Source: Pezizomycotina sp. ARF18 (Eukaryota; Ascomycota). Taken from it: a stretch of DNA of 64,000 bases. The notes under the pieces are model-generated. The model did no database searches, was not told where the DNA came from, and saw nothing but the letters and a program-made list of their open reading frames with translations. Shown here piece after piece: positions 1,256-55,358 of the stretch. Numbering within the stretch: position 1 is the stretch's first letter; every line of letters starts with the position of its first letter. The stretch is from NCBI GenBank assembly GCA_002224055.1, contig AZLU01000079.1, positions 105,249 through 169,248 of the forward strand, written 5' to 3'. The position numbers were made by a program, and so were the translations under genes.

Positions 1256-2936
1256 GGTGGTGCCGTTTAATCATATATGAGGAGAGGGAAGAAGGAGAAG
1301 AAGTAAAGGGAACAATTTTTATCAGCCAAGGCTAACCGATGAAAATGTTATTTGGCTTTTTTCCCCCTTTTTTCCTTCTTCGTTTGTTTTCGTCATCAAA
1401 TCGATAAAGGTTTTCCTATTAAGTACCGCTTTCTTCATACTAATATTCATTATAGGATATATCGTATTTTGAGGGCCATCAAGTCGTCATGGTTCGGGGG
1501 CGATTCGATTCAGTCAAATGATATTCTACTATGTAAGTTCTCCCCTTCTTATAGAATTTAAAAAGTTAATAGAGTTAGTAGTATATGCAGTTTCTCTGTG
1601 TTTATGACTATTTTTTGAAGAAAAGTAAAACCCTTGGTGAAGAACCTCGGTAAGTTTCTCTAATAGTGTCATCTTGCAGCTTTGCACTGTAGTTTCCCAC
1701 GAGGCCTAGGGTATCTTATTATCTTGGACTGTTGACCTTATTAGCATGTGAATTTTCATTATATTCTATGAGAATCAGGAACCCGATCTAATGGCTAATA
1801 TATATCGAATTTTGATATTTCAGAGTCTGATGTTTTCATTGATAGGTTTGGTATAAAAAAATATGAATATACTAGTACAAGCAGAGCATTTGCTGCAATT
1901 ATAAGTCAACCCGTGAGAAAGGGTAATGTATAAAGGAAAAAAAAAAAAAAAAATTTGGCTACTTAATAGAGGTGGAAAGAAAGTAAAAAGGCATATATGG
2001 GCATATACCAAGGAAGGGCTCCAGGACTATTAGACATTTTTATCAGGCTTTCGTATATTTTCGTCGCTGTTTTAAATCATATTCGAGTTCGCAATATGTT
2101 TTCTTTTACTTTCTCTTTTTTTGGGTTGGATAACGAAGAGATTATTTTAATGGATAATGTACTTGTAAGAAAATGAAAAAAGAGGCGTTTGTATAATAAA
2201 ACTACAAAAGAGAGAAAGGAAATACTAGTGAGTGGATGCGAAGGGATATGAAAAGACGAGACAAAAAAATGGAGTAGTAGGTGCGTGCGCCGTTGAGATG
2301 AATATGTAATACTATATTTGTGTAACAAGAACAAATAATAGATTGAAGACAGAATGATAGAGAAAGGGAGTAGATAATGTATATAGCACAGCAAAGGGAA
2401 GAGGGAAGTATTTTTGAATCGCTAATATTATGAGAATGGCTTTGCGAAGGGAAAAGAAAAGAAAAAGGATGAACAATCGTGACAACCGGGTTAATGGCTA
2501 AAGCAAATGGGATATGCAAAAGAACCGTGGATTATAATAAATAAAGTATTATCGAAACGTGAACAAAGAGAAATATTGTTTATTACGCTTTCTTTTCCTT
2601 TTCGTAAGAACAAAAGGGATAGACAAATGAAACGAAAACTAACAAGAACACGAAAGGGCAAAGGACGAGGAAAGGAAGTAAAGTATATACCAAAAAAAAA
2701 GGGAGGGGGGAGAGAAATAAAAAAAAACTTTCAAAAGAATCCAGAGAAAAAAAAAAGCGTTGCCCCTCCGTCTTGTTTGGCAATTAGGAGTTTCGCTAGT
2801 ATACTCTCTAACGGAACCACACCAAATGACATTAAATATTGCCTACTATACGAGCCAAGAATGATAGCGTTGTTGTGCGTTATCGGTTGGGAATTGAAAC
2901 CTCGCACATTCGGAAGAATCCCATCGATAAGATGCG
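1256..2936. other. AT-rich intergenic region
   Basis: AT-rich spacer between the proline-rich gene and the 3' end of the ADF-H/PH gene. It holds purine-rich stretches and short poly(A) runs. The lysine-rich and phenylalanine-rich open frames look like compositional artefacts. I see no gene. Confidence 0.5.
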
Positions 2937-3845
2937 TTATCTAGACTTTGAGACAGCTTTGTGCGACTTCAAGACTATGTCAGTATCGAAATGATGAAGC
3001 GAAAACAAAGATATATATATATATATATTGGTAGATAAGTGCATTATTGCTCTTACTCTTGAAAACCTCGCCTTGCTCCTGGGATCCTGACAGGCACATT
3101 GCAGAATCCTCCTTCTTTTAGCAAAACATGCACGCCTATGAAGTAGACACCGAGACTTTATTAGCACACACACAGTCTTCAATGAACATATTTCACACGG
3201 GGGAGGACATTAGGACGAGCAATGACATACTATGGGGAGTTCTTCCTCATCGGGTCTGGAATAACTATACGGCTAACATCCTGAGGGATACTCCACTTCC
3301 TCGTCTGAGGGGCGTTCTATAGATATACACCGGTTAGGATAGCCTGAAAAGTTTTCAAGACAAACAGAAATAGCCAACTTACCTCGTCCTCGGTTAATGA
3401 GAGGAAGAGCAGCCGTCGGAAACAATCTTTAGGCAACGTCGCTTCCAGATAATAGCATCCGGAAGCTGGACGTTGACCCACCCCATGAGTAGGACAGACT
3501 TTTCCACGACAGCTGGTTGGAAGGTAAAGGCGGATGAGACACTTGAGTAACAGAGTTCTTTCGTGCAGTAGCGGCGGATGATTTGCTGCGAGGTCTTGGC
3601 ACGGTTGGTATAGGTTTCGATTCTTCGGCGGGCATGCCGTTCGACGTGGTGGCGACTTTGGTGTTAACATTTCGCTGATGGAATTCTTTCGGAATGATAC
3701 AGGAGACATCTCAGGAGAAGATAGCTTTCGGATGCGTTCTTCAGGGCCGTGATTCGGTAAGAGGAATTCGGGGCTCTTCTCTGGAGGGTTGAACCCTGCG
3801 GCCAGAAACGGTGATTCGATCTTATGAGGAGTGACTACTTTCGAA

Positions 3846-3877
<32 letters not shown>

Positions 3878-6743
3878 GAAATCGTATAAAATGGCAGACG
3901 TTAGTACGTTTCCACCGTGGCTCCAGGAATGTTCCCGCACGTACCAGTCGAGGAACTCGTCGCGGACACATTCGTCGAGCTCGGAGATTTCATCCCCGCG
4001 GTCCGAAGGGACGGGAGAGCAGCCGCCGGGTTAGGCGACGACGGCCGAGACCTTGGAGGTGTCAGGGCCGGCGCGGGCGCTTGCTGCTTGCTCTTCGAAA
4101 GCATCTCAAGTTGACGAATCCGCTGTGAGACACTGCCAGCCGAAACGTTGACCTTTCTTGGAGACAGGAGGACAGGCTTGGTATCGGAAGGCTTGCCACC
4201 AGAAAAGGGGCAGACACCGACCGAGCAGTCTCGATCACGGGGACTTCAGTGGAGGGAAGACGGGTGTGGTTCGTGCGAGCCTTCTGTGAGAAAGATTTCC
4301 GGGCACCTGGGCTAGTGAGTGGGGAGAAGTGCCAACGCGTCGAAGTTGCTTATTTTCTTTACCTTCCGTTAGATCGGAAGTACTAGCACTCCTCGGCGAC
4401 GATGGCTCCGACTTCATTCTCGCTAGTCCCTCGCACGGCGCAATTGTGTCAAACGTCGAGTTTGTATCTGACTGTGAAAGGCTGGCGTTATCGTCCTCGG
4501 AGATAGAGCTTAAGGGTCGTCTTGGTGCTCAGGGGTACCAAAGGAATTGGCGGGTTCGCCCTCTAACCCAACTTCTATGATCGGGTTCTGCGTGTCAGGG
4601 ACGTCCTGTGCTGATTCTGAGGAACGCGGAGGCGTTGAGGGAATAGGGGTAACGGATTCGTCTTCTGCAAACTCGTCGGCTTTATAGTAGTTACCATCAT
4701 CGCGGTCGTTATTATTATGATTACTACCATTATTATGGGAATTAGGATTACTAAGGTTGATATTACTACTGTTTTTATTACTGGTGTCTTTGTTATCGAT
4801 CGTGCAGTTGAGATTGTCGTGGTCGGTAGTGTTCATCTTTTCGTCTTCAATCGTACTGGTGAAAACTTTATCATTAAATTTTTCGGGGTGAGCTAGTTCA
4901 CCTTGTTTTTTCTCTCCTCTTCCTCCTTTGTTGACCCAAAATTTGTTGTTGTCGGCTAGCCTCTTCGGCCTCGGCCTTCGCTTGAGCCTCCGCTTTAGAA
5001 TCATTGCCTTTTCCTCAATTCCAGAGCCTTCAAGAGTCGAGCTTTCTCGGGTGTTATTGTTGGTTGTTTTGAAGATAATCCAGACGAGGATTTTGTTGAC
5101 CGTACTGAGGCAATAGAAAGTGTTGGAGAAAGGAGGATAGGGAGTAGGTGGAGGGTGTTGTTAGCGTGCCTGCTGCTGCAGGTTGTAAGGGGAGAGGTGG
5201 TGTGGGCGGCACAATAACGACAGGGTTATTGGTTGACGAATCTGCGGCGTGCTTGAATTGCTACTTCGGTGCGAAGACAATTTTCGTGGCGGAATGTGTA
5301 TTGATTTTGGTACAGAGGCCACTGGCCTGGATTCCCCGGATCCGACGAAAACCCTTCGAAGATGCTCCGGAGGTATGAGGCCGACGATCCCAATCTGTGG
5401 AGGGTCGAGGACCCAATTTACCTTCGGTTTGTACAAATAGTCGTAGATCTCATTTGGCGGTGGCCGGGCAGAAGAGGTGGATTTTCGACGAAGCGTTTCA
5501 GGTGTATCCCTTTTTTGTGGCGTGGTCGAGGGGTTCGTTTTTGCGTCGTCTATATCGGCGTACTTTGTAACAATTTCATCTTCGAGTTCTATGGACTCTT
5601 CGATTTTAATCGGCTCTGGTCTTGAAATTTCTACGGCAATAGGTCCTCTCGTTCCATCGCGGCCCACTTCAGATTCATGCGTCGTCACTACAACTTGTAA
5701 ACCTTGACTGTTCACCGTAGTTGTCTCGCCTGATTTCTGTCCCTCTTGCGTCCCCGACTCTTGCCCTTCCTCAGCAGATTCTACAATATCGGTAAGCCGT
5801 CGTTGTCGCAATGAGCTTGAAGAGGAAGATATCGAGGCGGTCGCTGTATGCGTTGAGCAAGCGGTTGTAAGAGCGGCATCTGTCAACTCCCTGGCGGATG
5901 TTAAGGAGACAGTGACATCGCAAGGAGTAAACCGCTCGACGATGTAATTGAAGTGGACTTGGGAGCGAGCTGTAGCGTAAGAAAGAAAGAGATGAGAAGA
6001 AAGAAAAGGAGAGAGCGAGAGAGAGCGAGGATCGTAATTAGTACACAACTGATAAAGTTATATCCCTTTCCCTTTCCTTCTTCCTAGAGCACTTCAATGG
6101 TATACAATAAAATTAAGGCAACTCCAAATAGAAAAAACCCGAAAAGAATTTATGGAAGTAAAATCTCATCTTACCTTTTAAGACCCTAGATGTATTATCT
6201 GGTACTAGTTTGATCAGAATATTCCTCCGTCTGTATCTTATAAATCCATAAAGGGGCGAGTCGTCGGGCTCCTTTTGGACCAGCTCCTTCATCTCCCGTA
6301 CACTGTTGTTTCCTTTCCCTAGCAACTCTAGCTCATCTCGAGACTCATATTTGAGAAAGAACCTTTGGATATTTGTTAGTATAGATTATAGACTAAAAAC
6401 TTATAGAAAGAAAGAAAGAAAGAAAAAAGGTTGTCTACACGCCGGCTATATCTAAAAGACTTGCTCTTCTCGATTTTGTTTTATAGCGCCTGATCCAACT
6501 GCTAGGTTGTACAATTGAATGCTCAGAGAATAGAATTATGCTCTGTTTCAAAACCATCGTACAGGAACAAGCCGCCTCCTCACAAGGAAGTGTAGCGCGC
6601 GATAATAGAAGAATGATAGAGAGAAAGACCAGGGGTGAAACTGAACAACTTCAAAGTAAAGGACCTTCACTTACCACCCAGCTTCCGCACAGCGTACTCG
6701 AAGCCTGCTGCACCTCGGGTTTGTCAAGACCGTTCACAGACAT
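2937..6743 (-). CDS. Fungal ADF-H (cofilin/gelsolin-like) protein with C-terminal PH-like domain
   Basis: Large, mostly disordered fungal protein. The N-terminus is an actin-depolymerising-factor-like fold and the C-terminus a PH-like fold, so a cortical actin or membrane adaptor role is plausible but not shown. Exon 1 starts at 6743 (MSVNGLDKPEVQQ) and ends at a GTAAGT donor at 6674. Exon 2 begins near 6365 with FFLKYESRDELELLGKG and DSPLYGFIRYRRR. After a further intron comes RSQVHFNYIVERFTPCDV, then the acidic Ser-rich middle (LRQRRLTDIVESAEE), a basic Ala/Gln helix near 4950 (AQAKAEAEEASRQQQ), and SVSQRIRQLEML near 4120. The PH-like end carries VLLMGWVNVQLPDAIIWKRR near 3470 and LQCACQDP near 3080. 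A poly(A/T) run at 3847-3876 lies in a probable intron. Many single-base frame breaks occur. The domain order matches a conserved Pezizomycotina family. The stop position is uncertain. Confidence 0.72.
3847..3876. repeat. 30-nt poly(A) run (poly(T) on the gene strand)
   Basis: Uninterrupted run of A on the + strand inside the ADF-H/PH gene. It follows a possible donor (GTACTAAC) on the minus strand, so it probably sits in an intron. Confidence 0.8.
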
Positions 6744-13314: not shown

Positions 13315-13793
13315 TCTGAATATGGCATCTTATATCGATTTTCTTCATGATTTAAAATTGCTGCATTATCCCTGGTTTTATTTTTGCTAGTTATTTCCTA
13401 TGAGGATTTCATGATTTCTTCACTTTCTTGCTGAAATATTTGCATTTGAGAGCTTGTATATAGTGTGAGCGCGGTTTGTTTTCGAGATATTTCTTGATAT
13501 TTATTGCTAATTTCTTTCGTCTGGTATATAGTGTTTCTAGAGCTGTAGAACCTAGTTCTTCATATTGCCTTTCAAAAAAATCTTCTTCCTTTAGTCCAGT
13601 AGATATCACCAGGGCACACTTGAAAGCCCATTATATCCTACACCCATTAAAACAATGGCTCAGGTTAGATATTATCTCAAGAATAGAAGTTTAGATTTAA
13701 CACTAAAGGGCCACCGTTTCGTTATTATACAAATATTTCAATACCTTCGTTGAAAGAAGTAATTCATTTCACAAATCTTCCTTTCAAGCAGCA
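13315..13793. other. Convergent 3' intergenic spacer
   Basis: AT-rich spacer between the 3' ends of the coiled-coil gene (+) and the 2-oxoglutarate dioxygenase gene (-). It presumably holds both 3' UTRs. No further gene seen. Confidence 0.6.
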
Positions 13794-15162
13794 GCCTTAG
13801 CCTCATTCCCGACATAAGTAGCAGCAAGCCTCCCGAATAGGTACTCCCGCTGTTGATAGCCGGGTACCTCTCCCGCCTTCCTCGGGCGATTTCCCTCGAC
13901 AAACGTCCGGGAAGGGCCTCGATGGTCTTTTCGTAGTTCGGGTTGCAAAAATAAGCAACGGAGTAACGGGGCGGGTACGAGTCGCTACCCTGGTCGAGGC
14001 CCTGGGGTGGCTCGACGACCTGGTGCTCCGTCGACGCGATCGTGTTGTTCGACCAGCGGGCGAGGAGGTCGCCGCTGTTTATGACGATGGTTCCGGGATC
14101 GGGTGGCATCTACGAAGCTTCCTTTAGGGGAGCGGACTTGCAGGCCGCCGCGGTTGTCTTGGAAGAGGAGGGTGATGGAACCTAGAGAAGACGAAAGGAA
14201 GGTATGAGCCTTCTGTTTTTTCTATGAAATGAAAATGGAGGTATGTAACGTCAAAAAAATATAAGCTTACCGTAGTCAGTATGCAGCCGGCTCTGATCTT
14301 CGTCTTGAATTCGTCCTTCTTCGTACTCGGATAATGTAATAGGCGGAGGTTATTATCCCCCTCCGTCCGTATAACTGTCGAAAAAGCCCTCGGGGAGGTT
14401 CATCCCCAGGGCTAAGCTGCTCATGATCTTGTTGTGCAGCTCCTTGCAGGTGAGGAAGAACTGCCTCATCGTTTGGTGAACTCTACGCCGTCGGCGTCGA
14501 AGCGATCCGGGAAGTTGTCGGCATACCCTCAACGCCTTCCTTGCCAATCTCTATAGATTCCTTCATGTCAGGCTCCGAAGCGCTGAGGGCCGCGACTTCC
14601 TTGGCGTCCGTCAGCTTGGTTACCTTTTCGCGACCGTAGGAGACGTAGCCACGGTTGCTCTCGGTGTTGTCCACCGGAGCTGATCTTTCTGCTCTTGAGG
14701 GCGCAAAGAATTTGGCGGACTAATTGCGAATGTTAGCCATTTACATGATTACAGATACCGAAATGATGAGAAAGTATGGGGGAAAAATGAAACAATTTCG
14801 CCTACCTCAGAGAATATCTTATCGACGGTCTCCTGCGGGATTCCATGGTTCTTGATGTACAGGAAACCTGCATTCTTGAAGCCATCGGTCATGGCCTTGG
14901 CGACCGCCAGCTTATCTTGCTCGCTGCCTTTCAGGAACAGAGAGAAGTCGATCAACTAAAGAGGCGGGGTTCAAACGATTGTATTTAGTCTATTGAATGT
15001 TATCTCTTAACTTACAATTGAAGATTTTGTGTCGTGCTCGTATCGACATGAATTCTCATGTGACAGCAAGCAAGGATAAACCAAACGAGTAGATAAGCAA
15101 CAAAACTTACAGGGAGACAAGCCCATCCTTCGAGACGGCAGTTCAACGGCGCTGTTAGTCAT
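13794..15162 (-). CDS. 2-oxoglutarate/Fe(II) dioxygenase, thymine 7-hydroxylase-like
   Basis: Member of the isopenicillin-N-synthase-like 2-oxoglutarate dioxygenases, closest in my reading to fungal thymine dioxygenase (T7H). That enzyme oxidises the thymine methyl group in three steps to isoorotate (uracil-5-carboxylate). The start (15162, MTNSAVELPSRR) is followed by two short introns. The DIOX_N region reads LIDFSLFLKGSEQDKLAVAK and FLYIKNHGIPQETVDKIF; after an intron come SAKFF and NRGYVSYGREKVTKLTD. The catalytic part has the first His and Asp in LHTDYG, an intron at 14182-14270, then SITLLFQDNRGGLQV, the distal His in IASTEHQVVEPP, and the 2-oxoglutarate-binding Arg in PPRYSVAYFCNPNYEKTIEA. 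A few single-base frame breaks occur. It is divergent to the isoorotate decarboxylase-like gene at 16568, which supports a shared pathway. Other dioxygenase substrates remain possible. Confidence 0.82.
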
Positions 15163-16285
15163 GGTGATGTGGAAATACCTCTTTGCAAAGGAGATAGTAT
15201 TAACGGAGATTGAGAGCGCAAATAATATGAGAAGAAGAGGAAGAATCGTCTATCTTTCTACCTCGAAAGTGGACGCCGGTGTTATATATATTCGATGTCT
15301 AGCGACGCTACTACTGTTGCTGATAGGGAGAGAAGCTGCTATAGGTGCGCAGAATTGTTGATAACGTGGGGTATCTCTTGGTTGCAGCGTTATTGGCAGC
15401 TGCCCTTAGTGAAGGACGGATTGACACCGCGGGGTCATGGATACAAAAGGGACCCTATCAAAGCTTTTCAGCCCCCTCGACAAATAATTGAACCAGGTTG
15501 TTCTTTCTTTACCGTTCTTTCGCTGTCCGAGCTGCCTCAAAAGAAAGGTGTGTTATTAGAAAGTAGCAATCAATCAGTTACCTCGCCGGCGGTATTAAGG
15601 AATAGAAAATGTAGTATCGCTTAAGTAGAAGAATATCCGGAGATAAAGTCTTTGGGGTTCTGAATATTGTCCTTATTGAGGAAGGAGTACAAAGGTAGTA
15701 AATCACTCGTCATGGCCTTCGCGAGTATCTCGTTTTTTTTTTTTTTTTAAAGCAAGGGATAAAGTTACACCACTTCACTACATCTAATGAGCGCTGTTGC
15801 CCGTTCAACGAAAACGGCCGACGCGTTTATCCCGGCTATGGCCATCAGAGAACATTCCCGTGAACATTCCACGGAAGTTTCGGACCGTTGGTGGCTGATT
15901 GAGGTCGAGAGGCTGTCGTGACGGCGATGTTCAAAAAAAAGTTATCTCCCAGTGAGGAAGCTCAAAAGGAAAAGCGCCTTGACAGCCATCAAATTACGAC
16001 AGGGCCTCTTTCCACCCGTTCGTCCGTGTTGGGTCAAGAACAAAAAATTCTGACGCTGAATCACCGAAAAATGGCGATTGAATTCGGAATGTGCTTTCCT
16101 CAAGCTGCTTGACTGTCAACAGCGCTTTTGATCGCGGTAACTAGTGGTGGGGCTTGGAGCTTCTTTTCTTTTATCCGGAGGTTTGATCGCGGAGAAGCTA
16201 CGAGATGATGGCGCGAGGATGTCGCAAAACTTTTGCTGCAAGGGTCTCGCAAAACGAGTATCCACATTTGGCAACGGCGTCGACC

Positions 16286-16318
<33 letters not shown>

Positions 16319-16567
16319 ATGTTTGAGGGGTGGATCCGAAGCTTCTTTCGACAACCAACCAACCTTTCTTATCTTCAACTAAAAAGAACTCCATTCCTTT
16401 CTTCCCTCAAGCACTTCTGCCCGTGATTCCTTAGACTAAAAGCATCCGTGAAGAGTCCAATTTGCAATTGCGTCTATTCTCGTTCGAATTTGGTAACCGA
16501 CTCGAGCTGTAGCTTGTTTATCGTTCTCAACAGTTGCTAGTAACGAACTCGCGAAAGGTAAGGAAGA
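15163..16567. promoter_or_regulatory. Shared divergent promoter region with GATA-type sites
   Basis: This 1.4 kb lies between two divergent gene starts that fit one pathway. I count nine matches to the fungal GATA-factor consensus HGATAR on either strand: 15192, 15250, 15321, 15359, 15455, 15641, 15942, 16369 and 16518. About four are expected by chance at even base composition, and the AT bias would raise that. AreA/NIT2-type nitrogen control of thymine salvage would make sense but is inference. A 29-nt poly(A) run lies at 16288-16316. Two open frames on the + strand (15295-15624 and 15918-16112) have no domain signal and I do not call them genes. Confidence 0.4.
16288..16316. repeat. 29-nt poly(A) run
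   Basis: Uninterrupted A run about 250 nt upstream of the amidohydrolase start. It could act as a nucleosome-poor promoter element, which is inference. Confidence 0.8.
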
Positions 16568-17844
16568 ATGACGATCGTAGACGTCCACACCCACGTCTAC
16601 ACTCCGGCGTACATGCAGCTCCTCCGCGAGCGCAGCGCAAACGGTCCCGTACATCCGTACTTTCCCCTCTGACCCGTCCACCGAACGCCTCATCATCCTC
16701 CCGGGCGAAGATGACCCTTCGAATCCCTCGACTGCCACGGTAGACCCGTAACGGCAGACTACAACGACATCTCAAAGAAGATAGCGCTCATGGATACCCA
16801 CGGCATCGACGTGTCCGTCATATCCCTCGCTAATCCGTGGTTGGATTTCATCACCGACCCCGCGGAAGCTTCAAAGGCGTCGGAAAAGCTCAACGACGAG
16901 CTGAACACCATGTGCGAGAATTCCTCGGGAGGTTATTCGCGTTCGGCGCTTTACCGCTGTCTGCGGGCGTGGAGGTAGTCGAGAAGGAAGTCAGGCGGAT
17001 AAGCCAATTGAAGTACATCCGCGGCGTTATAATGGGTACTTCTGGCCTAGGCAACGGATTAGACGATCCCGAGCTGGACGCCGTTTATAAAGCGCTGCAG
17101 GAAAATCAAATGACTGTATTCTTACACCCGCACTATGGTCTCCCCAAGGAGGTATACGGCCCGCGGATGTCGGATTACGGGCACGTACTACCGCTAGCTC
17201 TAGGTTTCCCGCTGGAGACGACGATAGCGGTTGCGAGGATGTACCTGTCGGGCGTGTTCGAGCGGTTCACGAAGCTGACGGTGCTGATTGCACACAGCGG
17301 CGGCACGCTGCCGTTTCTAGCAGGAGGATAGAGAGCTGCATTGCGCACGACGGGCACCTGGCCAGCGAGAAGAAAGGAGGAGGGATATATGGAGGTACTG
17401 AAGACGAATGTGTTGCTGGACGCCGTGATATATTCGGAGCTCGGGGTGAAAGCGGCCGTAGAGGCTTCCGGGGCCGATCGCGTGATGTTCGGTAAAATTG
17501 GCCTTTTCTCCTCTGCAGTCCTTCAAAGTTCAATCTTGAGTTCCTCAAGAGAAGCTAGCTTCAACGACGACAAAAAGTAGTTCACGGGAGCTTCGTGAAG
17601 CTTTCGAGAAAGTTATAATATAAGGTCCTCGCTAACAACAGGAACCTTGTGTAACAACCCTACAGGCACCGATCACCCCTTCTTCCCGCCACTCTCGACA
17701 GAAGATACCGATGCTGCCGGCAAGTGGCTGAGCGTCGAGTCCAACTACAAAGCTATTCGGACCGCTTTCTCGGGCGACAAGTCTGAGACCGTGAACAATA
17801 TCCTTGGCGGTAATGCGGTCAAGCTACTGCGTCTTAACTCATAA
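16568..17844 (+). CDS. Isoorotate (uracil-5-carboxylate) decarboxylase / ACMSD-like amidohydrolase
   Basis: Metal-dependent decarboxylase of the amidohydrolase-2 family. Fungal members include isoorotate decarboxylase (isoorotate to uracil plus CO2); animal and bacterial relatives include ACMSD. The start at 16568 gives MTIVDVHTHVYTPAYMQLL with the HxH metal pair. Then come LIILPGEDDPSNPSTA, the conserved HGIDVSVISLANPWLDF, RGVIMGTSGLGNGLDDPELD, the third His in FLHPHYGLPKEVYGPR, YGHVLPLALGFPLETTIAVA, the fourth in IAHSGGTLPFLAG, and YLDAVIYSE-type sequence. An intron (about 17493-17665) splits GADRVMFG from TDHPFFPP, which holds the metal Asp. The end is LGGNAVKLLRLNS. All five expected metal ligands are visible. 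About four single-base frame breaks occur. The thymine-hydroxylase-like neighbour favours isoorotate over aminocarboxymuconate semialdehyde as substrate; the sequence alone does not settle this. Confidence 0.85.
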
Positions 17845-35017: not shown

Positions 35018-38000
35018 ATGCTTATTCTCCCGCAGAGAGTGCGACCTTCTGTGCTACGAACAAGACTTTCCACGCAGCAATCATGGACTTTACTGCGGTA
35101 CAGAGCCGTACCACTCCAACGAAGGAACCACCTTGCTACGGCGGCAGCAGCAGAAGTGATTACTGACAACTCGAAATTCAGGAACTTGAAAGTAGTACAA
35201 CCACTCTTTTTTCTCGACGTTGTCTTTCTCTGCTCATTCCATATATATTTTGTTCAATTTTTCCGTGGAGGTGGCGACGTGCATATAAAGGAAGAAAGAT
35301 ACACCAATTGAATGAATACATATGATATATATATATATATATACATCTTCTGCTTTTCTTCTTTCTCCTCTCCGGCTTAATTATTGACTCGTTCGTTGTA
35401 CATAGTGGATTGCAAACCTCGCCTTAATGAAATCAACATCCAACAACTCAGCGACCATATCCATAATCAAATTTTTCCTGGTGGATGCAAGGAAGCCCCT
35501 AGAGACCTCGTGGAACTAGCTAAGAAACACCTCAAGGAGCACAGACTAGGTGACAAAACGGAAGAAACGCCCCGATCGGATTTGACCTACCAGCATTGCA
35601 GGGCAAGACGCAAACTCTCGACGAGCACTTCCACTTGCTAGGGACCAAGGCATCCGAACCATACCTTAGCAAGGCGAAGTTGTTTGCAGAAGTCGATTGC
35701 CCCGAGATACCGAAAGAATGGGTGAAACGAAGTGGTTGGACGAAATATGTGGCAGGAAAGGACCCGAGGAAATAGACTGCCCCGACGCCGACGCCTTCGT
35801 TTTCGATGTGGAAGTCTTGTGGAAAATCAGCCCTTTCCGGTCGTTGCCTGCGCCGTCAGCAAAAGCGCATGGTATGCTTGGATTTCGCCTTGGATAATGC
35901 AACAGTCAGATGATCGCCAGTTTGATACCGCTAGGCCCGCCAGACCAGGACAGGGTTATCATTGGACATAACGTGGGCTACGACCGGGCTAGGATCAAGG
36001 AGGAGTATAACAGAGTACAAACAAACAACTGCTTCATCGACACCATGTCTCTTCACGTCGCCGTCAATGGCATGTGTTCACGCCAACGGCCTGTGTGGCT
36101 GAAGCACCGAAAGAATCGTGAGCTCAGGGAAAAGATTGCGAACGAAACCGATTCGGAAGAGCTCGCCAAGTTATTGGAGCACGCTCCGACGAAATAGAGC
36201 AGGAACTATGGGTCGGAAGGAGCTCGGTGAATTCTCTCAGGGACGTTGCTCAATTCCATTGCAATGTATCAATCGACAAGGCTATGCGAGATGATCTAGG
36301 GGAAATGGAGGTGGAAACGCTCGCCACCAGACTTTCAGACACCCTAAACTACTGCGCCGCAGACGTTGCAATCACACACAAAGTTTATCAGAAAGTGTTG
36401 CCGGCTTTCTTAAAAGTTTGCCCTCATCCGGTCAGTTTCGCCGCGCTCCGCCATCTTTCCTCGCTCATCCTCCCCGTCAACGAAACTTGGGAGGAATATA
36501 TCCAAAAGGCGGAAGGAAAATACATTGAACTACTTGACAGCGTGCAGACGCATCTGAAGAAGTTAGCCGATGACGCTGTAAAGTTAAAGGGAGAACCGAA
36601 GAAAATATGAGAAGGACCCGTGGATGCGACAACTGGACTGGTCCGGCCAAGAAGTGAGGGTGACAAAATCCGGACACCCGGTCAAGCGCCAAAAAATGCC
36701 AGGGATGCCTAGATGGTACAAAGACCTTTTCCCCAAAGTAGACGGCGAGATGAAGATTACAGTAAGAACTAGATTGCTCCGCTTCTTCTTCGCCTAACCT
36801 GGAAAGGTTATCCTCTTACATGGACCGACAAGTATGGATGGACATTTAGAGTTCCAGTTGCAGACGTTGAGAAGCTCCAAAACGAGATCTCGTGCAGTGT
36901 ACAGAACTTCTGGAAGAGAAACCTTATATCTCGAAGATTACGGCCACCTTTATTACAAAGTACCACATAAAGACGGGAGCGAGGCTCGTTGTGCGACACC
37001 CCTTGCCAAGACATACCAGCGGTACTTCGAAGACGGTACATTGGATTCGGAGTTGGGTCGGAGCTGAAGTCAATGATTAGAGCACCACCCGGCTATGCTT
37101 TGTCGGCGCGGATGTTGATTCTGAAGAATTGTGGATTGCAAGCTTAGTAGGAGATGCACAGTTTAAACTCATGGCGGAAACGCAATCGGTTTCATGACAC
37201 TCGAAGGGACGAAAAAAGATGGAACAGACATGCACTCTAGAACGGCCTCTATGCTAGGATATCACGAAACGATGCCAAAATCTTCAACTACGGTAGAATT
37301 TATGGTGCAGGGCTGAAGTTTGCGACTAGCTTGCTTCGGCAATTTAACCCTTCTATGGAAGAATCAAAGCGGGCGAGACCACCGCAAGCAATGCAAAAAA
37401 GAAGAGGGTTGGGTCGGAGCTGAAGTCAATGATTAGAGCACCACCCGGCTATGCTTTTGTCGGCGCGGATGTTGATTCTGAAGAATTGTGGATTGCAAGC
37501 TTAGTAGGAGATGCACAGTTTAAACTTCATGGCGGAAACGCAATCGGTTTCATGACACTCGAAGGGACGAAAAAAGATGGAACAGACATGCACTCTAGAA
37601 CGGCCTCTATGCTAGGATATCACGAAACGATGCCAAAATCTTCAACTACGGTAGAATTTATGGTGCAGGGCTGAAGTTTGCGACTAGCTTGCTTCGGCAA
37701 TTTAACCCTTCTATGGAAGAATCAAAGCGGGCGAGACCGCGTCCAGGCTCTACCAAGAAACAAAGGAACGAGTACCTCTAAAAGACCATACAGCAACAAC
37801 CGGAAGTTCTGGAGAGGGGCACGGAGAGCTTTGTCTTCAACAAGCTCGAAGAGTTTGCGGAGCAGGACACTCCCGTACCCCCGTGCTCGGGGCTGGGATC
37901 ACCGAGGCGTTGCAAAGGCGATATATTAACAAAGGGTCTTTCCTAACGTCCCGGATCAATTGGGCGATTCAGAGTTCAGGCGTGGACTACCTACACCTAC

Positions 38001-50017: not shown

Positions 50018-53000
50018 ATGGCGACCGCCCCTGCGTGGCTCGCTTCCGATTTTCAAGAACTTCACGAATTCCTGATTGCTGTCGCAGAACGCGATATGTC
50101 GCTCCCCCCATATTGGCAGACCTGTTGGTTATTACCGGACGAGTTGAAGAAACTCTTGCAGAGTCGGGGCAAGAGCAATGAGAGTCGGAAGACGATCAGT
50201 CCGCGTCAACATCTGGTAAGGTTTTTTTTTTTTTTTTTTTTTTGGTTGATTTACACATGATCGGAACCTAGCGATACTCTCTTCCTGCTTAAATAGCCAT
50301 TCGATCATTGTATATGTTTTTGCTAATAAGCGATGTCTTGCCATGTTGGCCGACAGGAAAACTTAAGATACAGGATATAGAATACACCGTGAATGGGGAG
50401 TTCATACAAACCGTTATTGAACTCGCGGACGAACTTAAACTGGATGAGCTACTCGCTGCCGAATTATTATTACTGGGCAGGAGGAAGCCGACAAGCTCGA
50501 TAGGAGTGCACCGCAGGCGTCCATTTTCGTATTCCACTCACGGAGACAGACGATCCTGGAATGCCTGCGACTTATTTTCTCGCTCTCAATTGACGATCGA
50601 CTAGAAGATGGGGTTAAGGCGACATTGCTGGACACTGTGAACTATATAACCGAATCTTCGAAGCCGGAAAAGGCGGGGGAGTTTGCAGGGAAATGCATCG
50701 ACACGATGGCCGAGTTACGAAATGACCTGAAGGGTCTAGAGGATAAAGGCAGAAATGCCGCGTTTCACCACCTCAACCTCGTCGATGGCTTCATCGAGGG
50801 CCTCCGGCTACGCGCTACTTTTCTATCGAATCAGCATCAGTCCTTAGGCGGTATCGTTTACAACTTGGTGCAGCATAAGCAATGTGGCGCTAGTGCTTTG
50901 GAAAAAATGAAGTCAAATCTGAGATCTCATAAAGACTACGACGTGCTATTAGTCCACCAAATTCCAGCTTTCATCGCCTTGATCGATTTCCTCACGCTAT
51001 CATCGGCGTCCCTCAAGGGCCCAGAAACCAAGAAAATCCATGACGACTTTCTGAAGAGTTCAAGGAAGAAAAATGGGACCTCCAATACGTACACGCAGCG
51101 ACCCATATGTGGTGGTACGCCGCATTTAACGGCTTCGTGAGAGATGCACCGTCGAACACCGTCTCAGAGCTGAAGATATCGTATATGACGGATATTCACG
51201 AGCCATCGCGTGTGGCACTCACAGATGGTGCCTTGGACTTCATGATGGCTGTCGTAGCAGAAATCAACAAGCCGGAAGAATATGATGCCGCGCGCGAAGA
51301 TTTCCGTCGGTTCTACAAACGAAAACGCCGCTGCAGCCACAGACCCCCATGGACATTACGACGGAATTCAAGCATATCTTCCTGTCACAGATGGAACTTT
51401 TCATGGATAATTTTATTTCGAATATGGCCGACCTTTTGAAGGAGATAAAAAACAATGAAGAGGAAGATCATATGATGCAGAGAGAAGGCAATTACAACTT
51501 AGAAAGGTTCTTTTTCTTGATTTCATCGCTTTTCAGTAATCGTCTGGAAGCAGGTATGACTTTCTGGTCGGATAGGGAGAGCAATCTTTTTGGATTTCTT
51601 GTCTGGGCATCAAATCGACAAACGCCACTGATGGCTGCCGCATACTGCGACGTACTGGCATCACTTTCCCACGGTGTGCAAAGCGCCGAGGCGACCGATG
51701 CATTCCTGTCGGAGGAGACCCCGCCGTCTTCCGCCAAGATAAAGAAAACCACTCAAATCTCATGGACTTTATATTCCAGTCCCTTCAGTACTACGCTAAG
51801 GAGCTGCGTCCCCGCCACCCTGAACAAGCCGCGATCCATCACTACCGAGGCGGACTCCCTCAGCCTCAAGAACCCACCGAACTAAGTGCAGAAAGCGTCC
51901 GAGTAGTGGACAGTTATATGCGATTAATCACCCAAGTCACGAGGGATTGTGAGGCTGCGAAGAAGAGGCTATACGAGAACCCTAACGCCAAGTTACTGCC
52001 AACGTACTTGGAATTCCTGGAGGCAAACATACCGCCTGTGCTTCTCGCTTCAATTTTAAGACACTGACGGCATTCTGCACTGGTAAGTCCGAAGTAGATG
52101 CAACACAGGCTTGGTTAGCATCGATCGGTTCCTTACGGGCTCACCGGCTCCTCTTGGCCCTGCAGCCTCGATGAGTGTTGCGGTGAAAGCGAACAGTGGT
52201 CAAGCTTATGATAAACTGGAAATGATTGGCGCAAGCTTCCCGGCCACCGAAGCATTTTTAGGGTTATTGACGGCGCTTGTTACGCCCGCGATAGATGCTG
52301 GGGACAATAGCCTACCTTTCCCCGAAAACCTCGGCAGCTCTAGTAGATTGCCAGGGATCGACCCTTATGTTGACTTCGCGATGCGCCTTCTTTCACAGTC
52401 CGTTATCGTTGACAAGATTACTGGGTTTAGACGCTGGTCTGATGCCGAGCTTTCAATTTTACAGTTGAGATGCTTACAGTTCATCTACACTAGTCTGGTG
52501 TCGTTCAATGAACAGCTGATTCTTATTGCGAACTCTTCCAATGTCTCCGTGGATAATGCCATGCCGACATCAAACCTCGCAAGTTATGTCAAGCTGCACC
52601 CGTTTGCGCGCATCATGGACCACCTGTTTAGCGAGGCGGTGTTATCAGCGCTGTTCACGATCGTCGCTGGAGGAGTGGAAATTGTACCGTCCGTTTCCGA
52701 TTCTTCGCCGCTCGTGCAGACAGTGTTGATGAGTATCCAAGTAATGAACTTCATCATGGATAAACAGACCACATACTTGGAAGTTGTACGGCCCGAGTTA
52801 TGGCGTGACGAAACAAATACGCGCCAAAGAGTGTCGCCACCGTGGGTCTTTCGTCCTTTGAGGACGCCGTGCTCTACCACCTGAATGTTATAGTTCACCT
52901 CGGCAATTACGCTGGTATGCAGCATGTTGCGCTCTCCTTGGTCTCGCTCGAGTTTCTCACCAAACTATCGACATCACCGAAACTCATTTCGTCACCTTCC

Positions 53001-55358
53001 TCCCTTTTTGACCGGCAAATTCGAAAGAACCGTGTTTTGAGTGTCACAGACATGGAAGGCGAATCTCGGCGAATTGCATTCGGTTTTATCAGTCAGCTCG
53101 ACACCCTTCTGAGGATTGCGATCTTGAAGGACTTCCAGACGGACCACACACCATTAAGTTGGCAATTCTCCGGTTCCTCGAAGCGAGCCTTCTTTCGCAG
53201 CCGAATGAAGCCTCTCTCGCGCATCTAATCTTGGGCTTCGCGACTAATAATGGAAGCGTTGATTTAAGCACGGAACCCAGCGGTATCGGATCCGGAGTGT
53301 CCGTTTTTCACTCTATACTAAATATCGTTAGTGTGTGGGATGAGCGGAACGAATCCGGCAAAGCCTTTAATGTAGCGCTTTGCAGGCTGAAAGCCGCATG
53401 CTTCCGAGTTCTTAGATCCTTGTGGCAGTCTAAACTTACATCGAGCGATACCCTTTATGTGTTACGAGAAAATAAGTTCCTATATGCACAGTTCTCGCAA
53501 GATGTAGCGATCGGAAGGTCGACGTTATGGGACGGAGAGTCGTTCGACTCCGGCAGAATTTTTACTACAAAGGGCGTCGAAGGCTGCATGGAATACCTCT
53601 ATCGGCGAACTGCGACGTTCGACTATATTGCGCTGGAGATTAGGCAGATGTCGATTATAGGGGCTGCCGGTACGATCAGAGACTATTTCCAGACGTTAAC
53701 CGGGTAACAGATGCATTTGGAGATCGGCTGGTTCACGGGAGTATTCTCGATCTCCTCGATTTCTTGGAACTGGATTCCGAAGACGGCCTACCGCAACCGA
53801 ATTTACAATGGTTTAGCGACCTGAACTTCTCATCTTGCCAATCTACCGAAAGTGGGGTTGTCTTATATGACCTCACTGGGGCACATGAACTGCTGAACCT
53901 GAGGAAAGTTGAGCTGAAGAAGCTTGGCCGATTTGGCGCCGACCAAGAGGAAGGCGCTGAGGAGGAAATCGTGAGCATATTGGACTACTTCTTCATCGAA
54001 AACAGCCGCCGCCGCTTCAGAATTTCACGTGTCGAATGTCTGCGGTACTGGTGTAGGTTGATCGTTATCATTCTAGAATGCGCTCGGTTGGATAGTGCCG
54101 CCCAAACGTCTTTTATCTTTCAGACCCTTCAAACCATCCTCCCAAAGCTGGAACAATATAGCGCAAACGACATCCAAAGTGCCGAGGAGCTCAGTTCACT
54201 CGCACAGTCACTCATCACCCACTTGAAATTCGATACGTCAACCCTCGGAAAGGGCCGAGCAAGCGACGTTGCGAACGATAAACTTTACCAGATGTTCCGC
54301 ACAGCGCTTCGATGCATCCAGTCTCCCATCGCTACATCGGCCCTCCGAGAAGACTTTTACTCTGTTGTTCACCGCTACCTCGTGGGTATGCAGGATGTTT
54401 CTTTGTCTGGTTCCATTCTAAGTCGCCACAGCATCCAGACGATAAGAGCGTCAGGAGAACGGCTGTTGGAGGTCCTCTGCAATGATGCCTATGTTGGATC
54501 TGGCAACTGCAAGGTCCTAGCATTGCTGGTTCTCGACGCCCTCGTACATCTTGCACAAGAAGAAGATTCTTCATATATCCTCGACGTTCTTATGAGACAG
54601 AATTTCATTGTCGTTATTGTTCAAACATTGAAACATCTCGATCGCGAGTTTGAACACGTCCGAGATGGTGAGTTGTAACTCTTATCCAATTTTAGCTATT
54701 CTCAAAGTCACTAATATACTTTTTTTCCTCTTACGAATAGGCATAGTTGTCAATGCGGTCAAGGCAACAACTGGTCTATTGCTCCGTATCTCGCGGACGA
54801 AGGATGGTGCCTCCGCGATATTAAACGCAGGTTATTTCCAAGTATTGAACGAGAGCGGCCTCTTTTCCGTAGATCCCGACCTCGGATTTGGTACGTTTGA
54901 GGATTTTAGCAATCCTTCCAATCTAATTGAAAAAAACACTCTCTAACTTTTCACACTGTGCGTTGCTCAGGTTTGCCAGGTGAGAAAGGGCTAGCTCAAT
55001 ATTACGAACTGCTTCAGGCCTTTATCCGTGTCCTGGTCTCCTGTCTGCTTAGTCGAGGCGCACTAGACAAGATAGAAACGGAACAATGCAGACGTTTCCT
55101 CACAAGCAACACGAACCTTATCTCGTCAATCTTGAAGCGGCAAGCTGGAATCGGCAGCGTGATACAAGATGCGGGAAACTTAGGGCCACTAGTTGAGATG
55201 TTTGTGCTCATGTACTGCCTGAGCGATCTACTTGAGGTAAAACCCTTCTTGCCATTTTATTGAGTTTTGAGAGTCATTTCTACAGATATACTAATATTTC
55301 ATTATTTCAGCCTGAGGACAATTCACAACAGGTGTATTCTAGAAGTCGCTTCAACTAG
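50018..55358 (+). CDS. NUP192: Nucleoporin NUP192/NUP205-type inner-ring scaffold
   Basis: Large alpha-helical scaffold of the nuclear pore inner ring, binding partner of Nic96 and Nup53 in the family. The start at 50018 gives MATAPAWLASDFQELHEFLI and SLPPYWQTCWLLPDELKKLL. Intron 1 (50216-50356) contains a poly(T) run. Exon 2 opens KLKIQDIEYTVNGEFIQTVI, ELADELKLDELLAAELL, ITESSKPEKAGEFAGKCIDT. The body is uninterrupted helical solenoid: MWWYAAFNGFVRDAP, YSDRES-like WSDRESNLFGFLVWASNR, LVWASNRQTPLMAAAYCDVL, VVDSYMRLITQVTRDCEAAK. Introns 54668-54740, 54891-54970 and 55237-55310 split the C-terminus (NAVKATTGLLLRISRTKDGA, GPLVEMFVLMYCLSDLLE, then PEDNSQQVYSRSRFN, stop 55356-55358). The estimated 1,670 residues match the family. 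About eight single-base frame breaks occur. Confidence 0.88.

Follow-up and report, generated by a model that had tools for sequence, protein, structure and literature searches.

A probable head-to-head pair of thymine-7-hydroxylase and isoorotate decarboxylase genes for thymine-to-uracil conversion in Pezizomycotina sp. ARF18

Two adjacent genes in the window, the whole 64,000-bp stretch of DNA that was analysed (contig C79, positions 105249-169248, in an assembly of 408 contigs totalling 46.4 Mb), very probably form a head-to-head pair of fungal genes for thymine-7-hydroxylase (T7H) and isoorotate decarboxylase (IDCase, uracil-5-carboxylate decarboxylase), which would together convert thymine to uracil. 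We consider it about nine chances in ten that this is the case, that both genes are intact in the organism, and that the frame changes seen in them are assembly errors. The T7H gene was located on the minus strand using a frame-aware alignment to Neurospora crassa T7H and piecewise PDB matches, and extends from an LIDFS motif to the stop codon (13784..14955), with two GT-AG introns placed by the alignment at approximately 14805-14720 and 14270-14182. A tentative first exon (15111..15162), with an ATG at 15162 and a GT donor at 15110, was read from the sequence and lies outside all homology matches; counted from this ATG, the T7H-like pieces span approximately 15162 to the stop at 13784. The IDCase gene is on the plus strand (16568..17844), contains one GT-AG intron (17492-17665), and was placed by frame-aware alignment to the IDCase structure 4HJW together with PDB matches of three pieces. 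The genes are therefore divergent, and approximately 1.4 kb between the two start codons (15163..16567) could serve as a shared regulatory region. A preliminary description of this DNA had reported a divergent dioxygenase/decarboxylase pair, and both members were found on opposite strands close to the positions it gave, with both of the peptides it quoted, SITLLFQDNRGGLQV and PPRYSVAYFCNPNYEKTIEA, lying in the dioxygenase gene.

The frame-aware alignment of the dioxygenase gene to the N. crassa T7H chain (5C3O/5C3P) covered residues 17-324 at 58% identity (162/278) without stop codons; 23 positions of this reference chain are set to X, and frame changes near them may be miscounted. When the gene was searched against the PDB in six pieces, thymine dioxygenase was the best match for every piece, five of them at an E value of 2.1e-5 or lower and the remaining one (14127-14399) weakly, at 0.055. 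For one of the pieces the T7H match (4.8e-24) stood well apart from that to the next dioxygenase (6.7e-7). Pfam profiles were also run on 10 pieces of the two genes, giving a 2OG-oxygenase family match in four, two of which were above the cut-off. The available text of PMC4787775 names 15 T7H residues that bind iron, 2-oxoglutarate or thymine, and when these were mapped by hand onto the present gene all 15 were retained. The Fe(II) triad His214/Asp216/His271 is represented by an HTDY motif and a later histidine, in frames reached across frame changes, and the 12 residues for 2-oxoglutarate and substrate are Asn87, Glu122, Arg190, Leu192, Tyr194, Tyr217, Leu223, Val273, Arg286, Ser288, Phe292, and Asn294. 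These comparisons support the assignment of the predicted minus-strand protein as a T7H rather than a secondary-metabolism oxygenase, in agreement with the T7H-like dioxygenase first proposed. It resembles N. crassa T7H (PDB 5C3O-5C3S) in overall identity and in its active site, and differs from it in the frame changes that its gene carries in the present assembly.

It is very unlikely that the dioxygenase is instead a T7H relative acting on another substrate, such as HxnY of the nicotinate pathway, placed beside the decarboxylase by chance. Excerpts of PMC9304392 do describe T7H as the closest structural homologue of HxnY, which retains the T7H residues that stack on the pyrimidine. However, the identity to N. 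crassa T7H, the complete set of named T7H residues (Asn87, Glu122, and Asn294 included), and the adjoining IDCase gene, a neighbour reported in N. crassa and Aspergillus nidulans as well, speak indirectly against HxnY.

The decarboxylase gene belongs to the Pfam family Amidohydro_2; four small pieces of it gave no Pfam match when searched separately. Its frame-aware alignment to 4HJW, which we take to be the IDCase of Metarhizium anisopliae, covered chain residues 8-374 at 59% identity (206/351), again without stop codons. Membership in Amidohydro_2 is shared with ACMSD, a point in favour of an ACMSD or another aromatic decarboxylase. The largest piece of the gene (16837-17328, 164 amino acids), however, matched IDCase structures in the PDB at approximately 6e-58 and the best ACMSD at 1.1e-15, a difference of more than 130 bits on this one piece, and two further pieces compared with the PDB also had an IDCase as their best match. 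An ACMSD identity was rejected on these PDB scores, and we regard the chance of such an enzyme as negligible.

Eleven residues of the Cordyceps militaris IDCase are named in the excerpted text of PMC6305744, and all 11 were found when mapped by hand onto the present gene: the metal ligands His12, His14, His195, and Asp323, and the substrate residues Arg68, Asn98, Phe222, His251, Arg262, Phe326, and Phe327. They are distributed over three frames, and the codon for Arg262 falls exactly on a frame change and was read in the frame that follows. The preliminary description had credited the protein with five metal ligands; all five residues are present, but by the same excerpts the ligands number four, and His251 binds the carboxylate of the substrate. 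Its proposal of an isoorotate decarboxylase is supported, with the predicted plus-strand protein going to IDCase and not to ACMSD. The gene is like the IDCases of M. anisopliae (4HJW) and C. militaris (4HK5 and 4LAK) in its identity to the former and in the named residues, and differs from them by its frame changes and by a shorter stretch ahead of Arg68. Two more Amidohydro_2 matches occur in the genome (C61:170820-171107 and C63:96731-96925, the second just below the family cut-off), neither of which is matched by the IDCase piece used for searching.

If both proteins have the activities that their sequences suggest, T7H, an Fe(II)/2-oxoglutarate dioxygenase, would carry out three successive oxidations leading from thymine to 5-carboxyuracil (isoorotate), and IDCase would release CO2 from isoorotate to give uracil. 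This is the thymine-to-uracil pathway originally envisaged for the pair, and both enzymes match characterised counterparts in sequence and in active-site residues. Uracil could then be converted to UMP by a uracil phosphoribosyltransferase (UPRTase) encoded elsewhere in the genome. UPRTase-family matches were found on contigs C382, C188, and C217, while C23 and C81 carry matches to the purine/pyrimidine permease family; because these lie on other contigs, the genome plausibly encodes the later steps, at sites separate from the pair. A search of the genome with one piece of each gene found no close second copy of either: the IDCase piece had a single match, and the T7H piece had one strong match and one weak match at 33% identity. 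The 2OG-FeII_Oxy family has four matches in the whole genome. Both genes, like the window as a whole, are probably fungal, judging by their best matches (N. crassa T7H and fungal IDCase), their short GT-AG introns, and the Nup192 and LDB19 gene pieces elsewhere in the window.

Neither gene is open in a single reading frame, a point on which the preliminary description was silent. The alignments required seven frame changes in IDCase (six with a stricter penalty) and six in T7H, with no stop codons within the aligned frames, and the sites of these changes in both genes leave no space for introns. The peptides SITLLFQDNRGGLQV and PPRYSVAYFCNPNYEKTIEA, for instance, sit in different frames, and the change between them, placed at 14104, is too tight for an intron. 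When a distant bacterial reference was aligned to part of the IDCase gene, one frame change and one stop were obtained.

As a control for the frame changes, conserved genes of the same genome, in which HSP70 pieces and likewise HSP90 pieces abut in changing frames, were aligned using the same aligner, and three loci from six alignments were used. The HSP70 locus on C49 had seven frame changes in 1822 bp (3.8 per kb; 354/599 identity to DnaK), and again seven with the stricter penalty. The HSP70 locus on C70 had 13 in 1697 bp (7.7 per kb; 295/546 identity to DnaK), and the one locus found for HSP90 (C137) had 15 in 1793 bp (8.4 per kb; 249/581 identity to HtpG), in an alignment with three inferred introns, one of merely 40 bp. 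None of the three contained stops. Left out were an HSP70 alignment on C208 (eight frame changes in 1884 bp, 201/595 identity, one stop) and two poor alignments, one on C208 in the wrong orientation (two in 711 bp) and one on C3 (five in 898 bp, three stops, 83/286 identity). The pattern of indels without stops at the HSP70 and HSP90 control loci resembles that of uncorrected long-read data.

The frame-change rate of the pair was 6.4 per kb compared with 6.6 per kb for the three controls, or 13 changes observed where 13.3 were expected. As this rate equals that of the controls and the active-site residues are kept, assembly indel errors are the likeliest cause of the frame changes, and both genes are presumably intact in the organism. 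The alternative is a genuine pair that has decayed, with several indels making each gene a pseudogene. Besides the number of changes and the want of intron space at them, this draws some support from the kinds of change, since a net loss of one base accounts for 6/13 changes in the pair and 30/35 in the controls (p 0.009 in a Fisher test); counting only plain single missing bases, the figures are 6/13 and 27/35 (p 0.08). The differing mix may be due in part to the gaps in the T7H reference. Against decay are the aligned frames free of stops, the retention of every named active-site residue, and an overall rate like that of the HSP70 and HSP90 controls, which makes a pair of pseudogenes improbable, with a small chance left to it. 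Gene models derived from the present assembly are thus likely to be broken by indels, and genes in it that look like pseudogenes should be accepted as such only with support from the reads.

The two genes may be co-regulated through a shared promoter region, as the preliminary description proposed. Between 15170 and 16567 there are nine GATA-type sites against a mean of 5.1 in shuffled sequence, without clear enrichment, and shared nitrogen regulation through such sites is not claimed because at least nine were reached in 69 of 1000 single-base shuffles. One open frame in the gap (15226-15621) was searched against Pfam and had no match.

According to excerpts of PMC6305744 (2018), citing Smiley et al. 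2005, the IDCase gene is located downstream of the T7H gene in N. crassa and A. nidulans. The present pair consists of the same two enzymes encoded by adjacent genes, so the pathway reading is not new; pathway and clustering are already in print, and the pair is an ordinary further example. The only wording on layout in those excerpts is "downstream", whereas the genes described here are head to head, an order that might differ from that of the published species. It is conceivable, if rather doubtful, that this lineage has turned T7H-then-IDCase neighbours head to head, so that one bidirectional promoter of approximately 1.4 kb co-induces both salvage steps. The adjacency may not be general, since PMC3680317 lists a gene of Ophiostoma piceae, annotated as thymine dioxygenase, within a gene cluster that includes no decarboxylase. 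The pair adds one genome in which both signature thymine-salvage enzymes occur together, and supports naming both genes in annotation.

Synteny was also sought in prokaryotes. A first scan of genome contigs found no relative among 78 stretches, and a scan with a conserved stretch of 51 residues found one among 253, an IDCase-like gene on a contig (L019) of a bacterial metagenome-assembled genome, where no dioxygenase was found among the four open frames searched with Pfam. On this contig the IDCase-like protein, which matches IDCase 4HJW best in the PDB (2.6e-48), lies beside an Amidohydro_1 protein (3231-4247 and 1761-3188), with two GntR regulators also beside it. This protein is possibly a bacterial 5-carboxyuracil decarboxylase belonging to a gene cluster for pyrimidine catabolism.

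Elsewhere in the window, a 358-bp unit is present in 1.9 tandem copies with a 99% match (37052-37738), either a real duplication or an assembly artefact. Pieces of an LDB19 gene are also present, and at 52087-54678 two pieces match Nup192 (profile positions 675-885 and 1193-1511), with an open frame between them in another frame.
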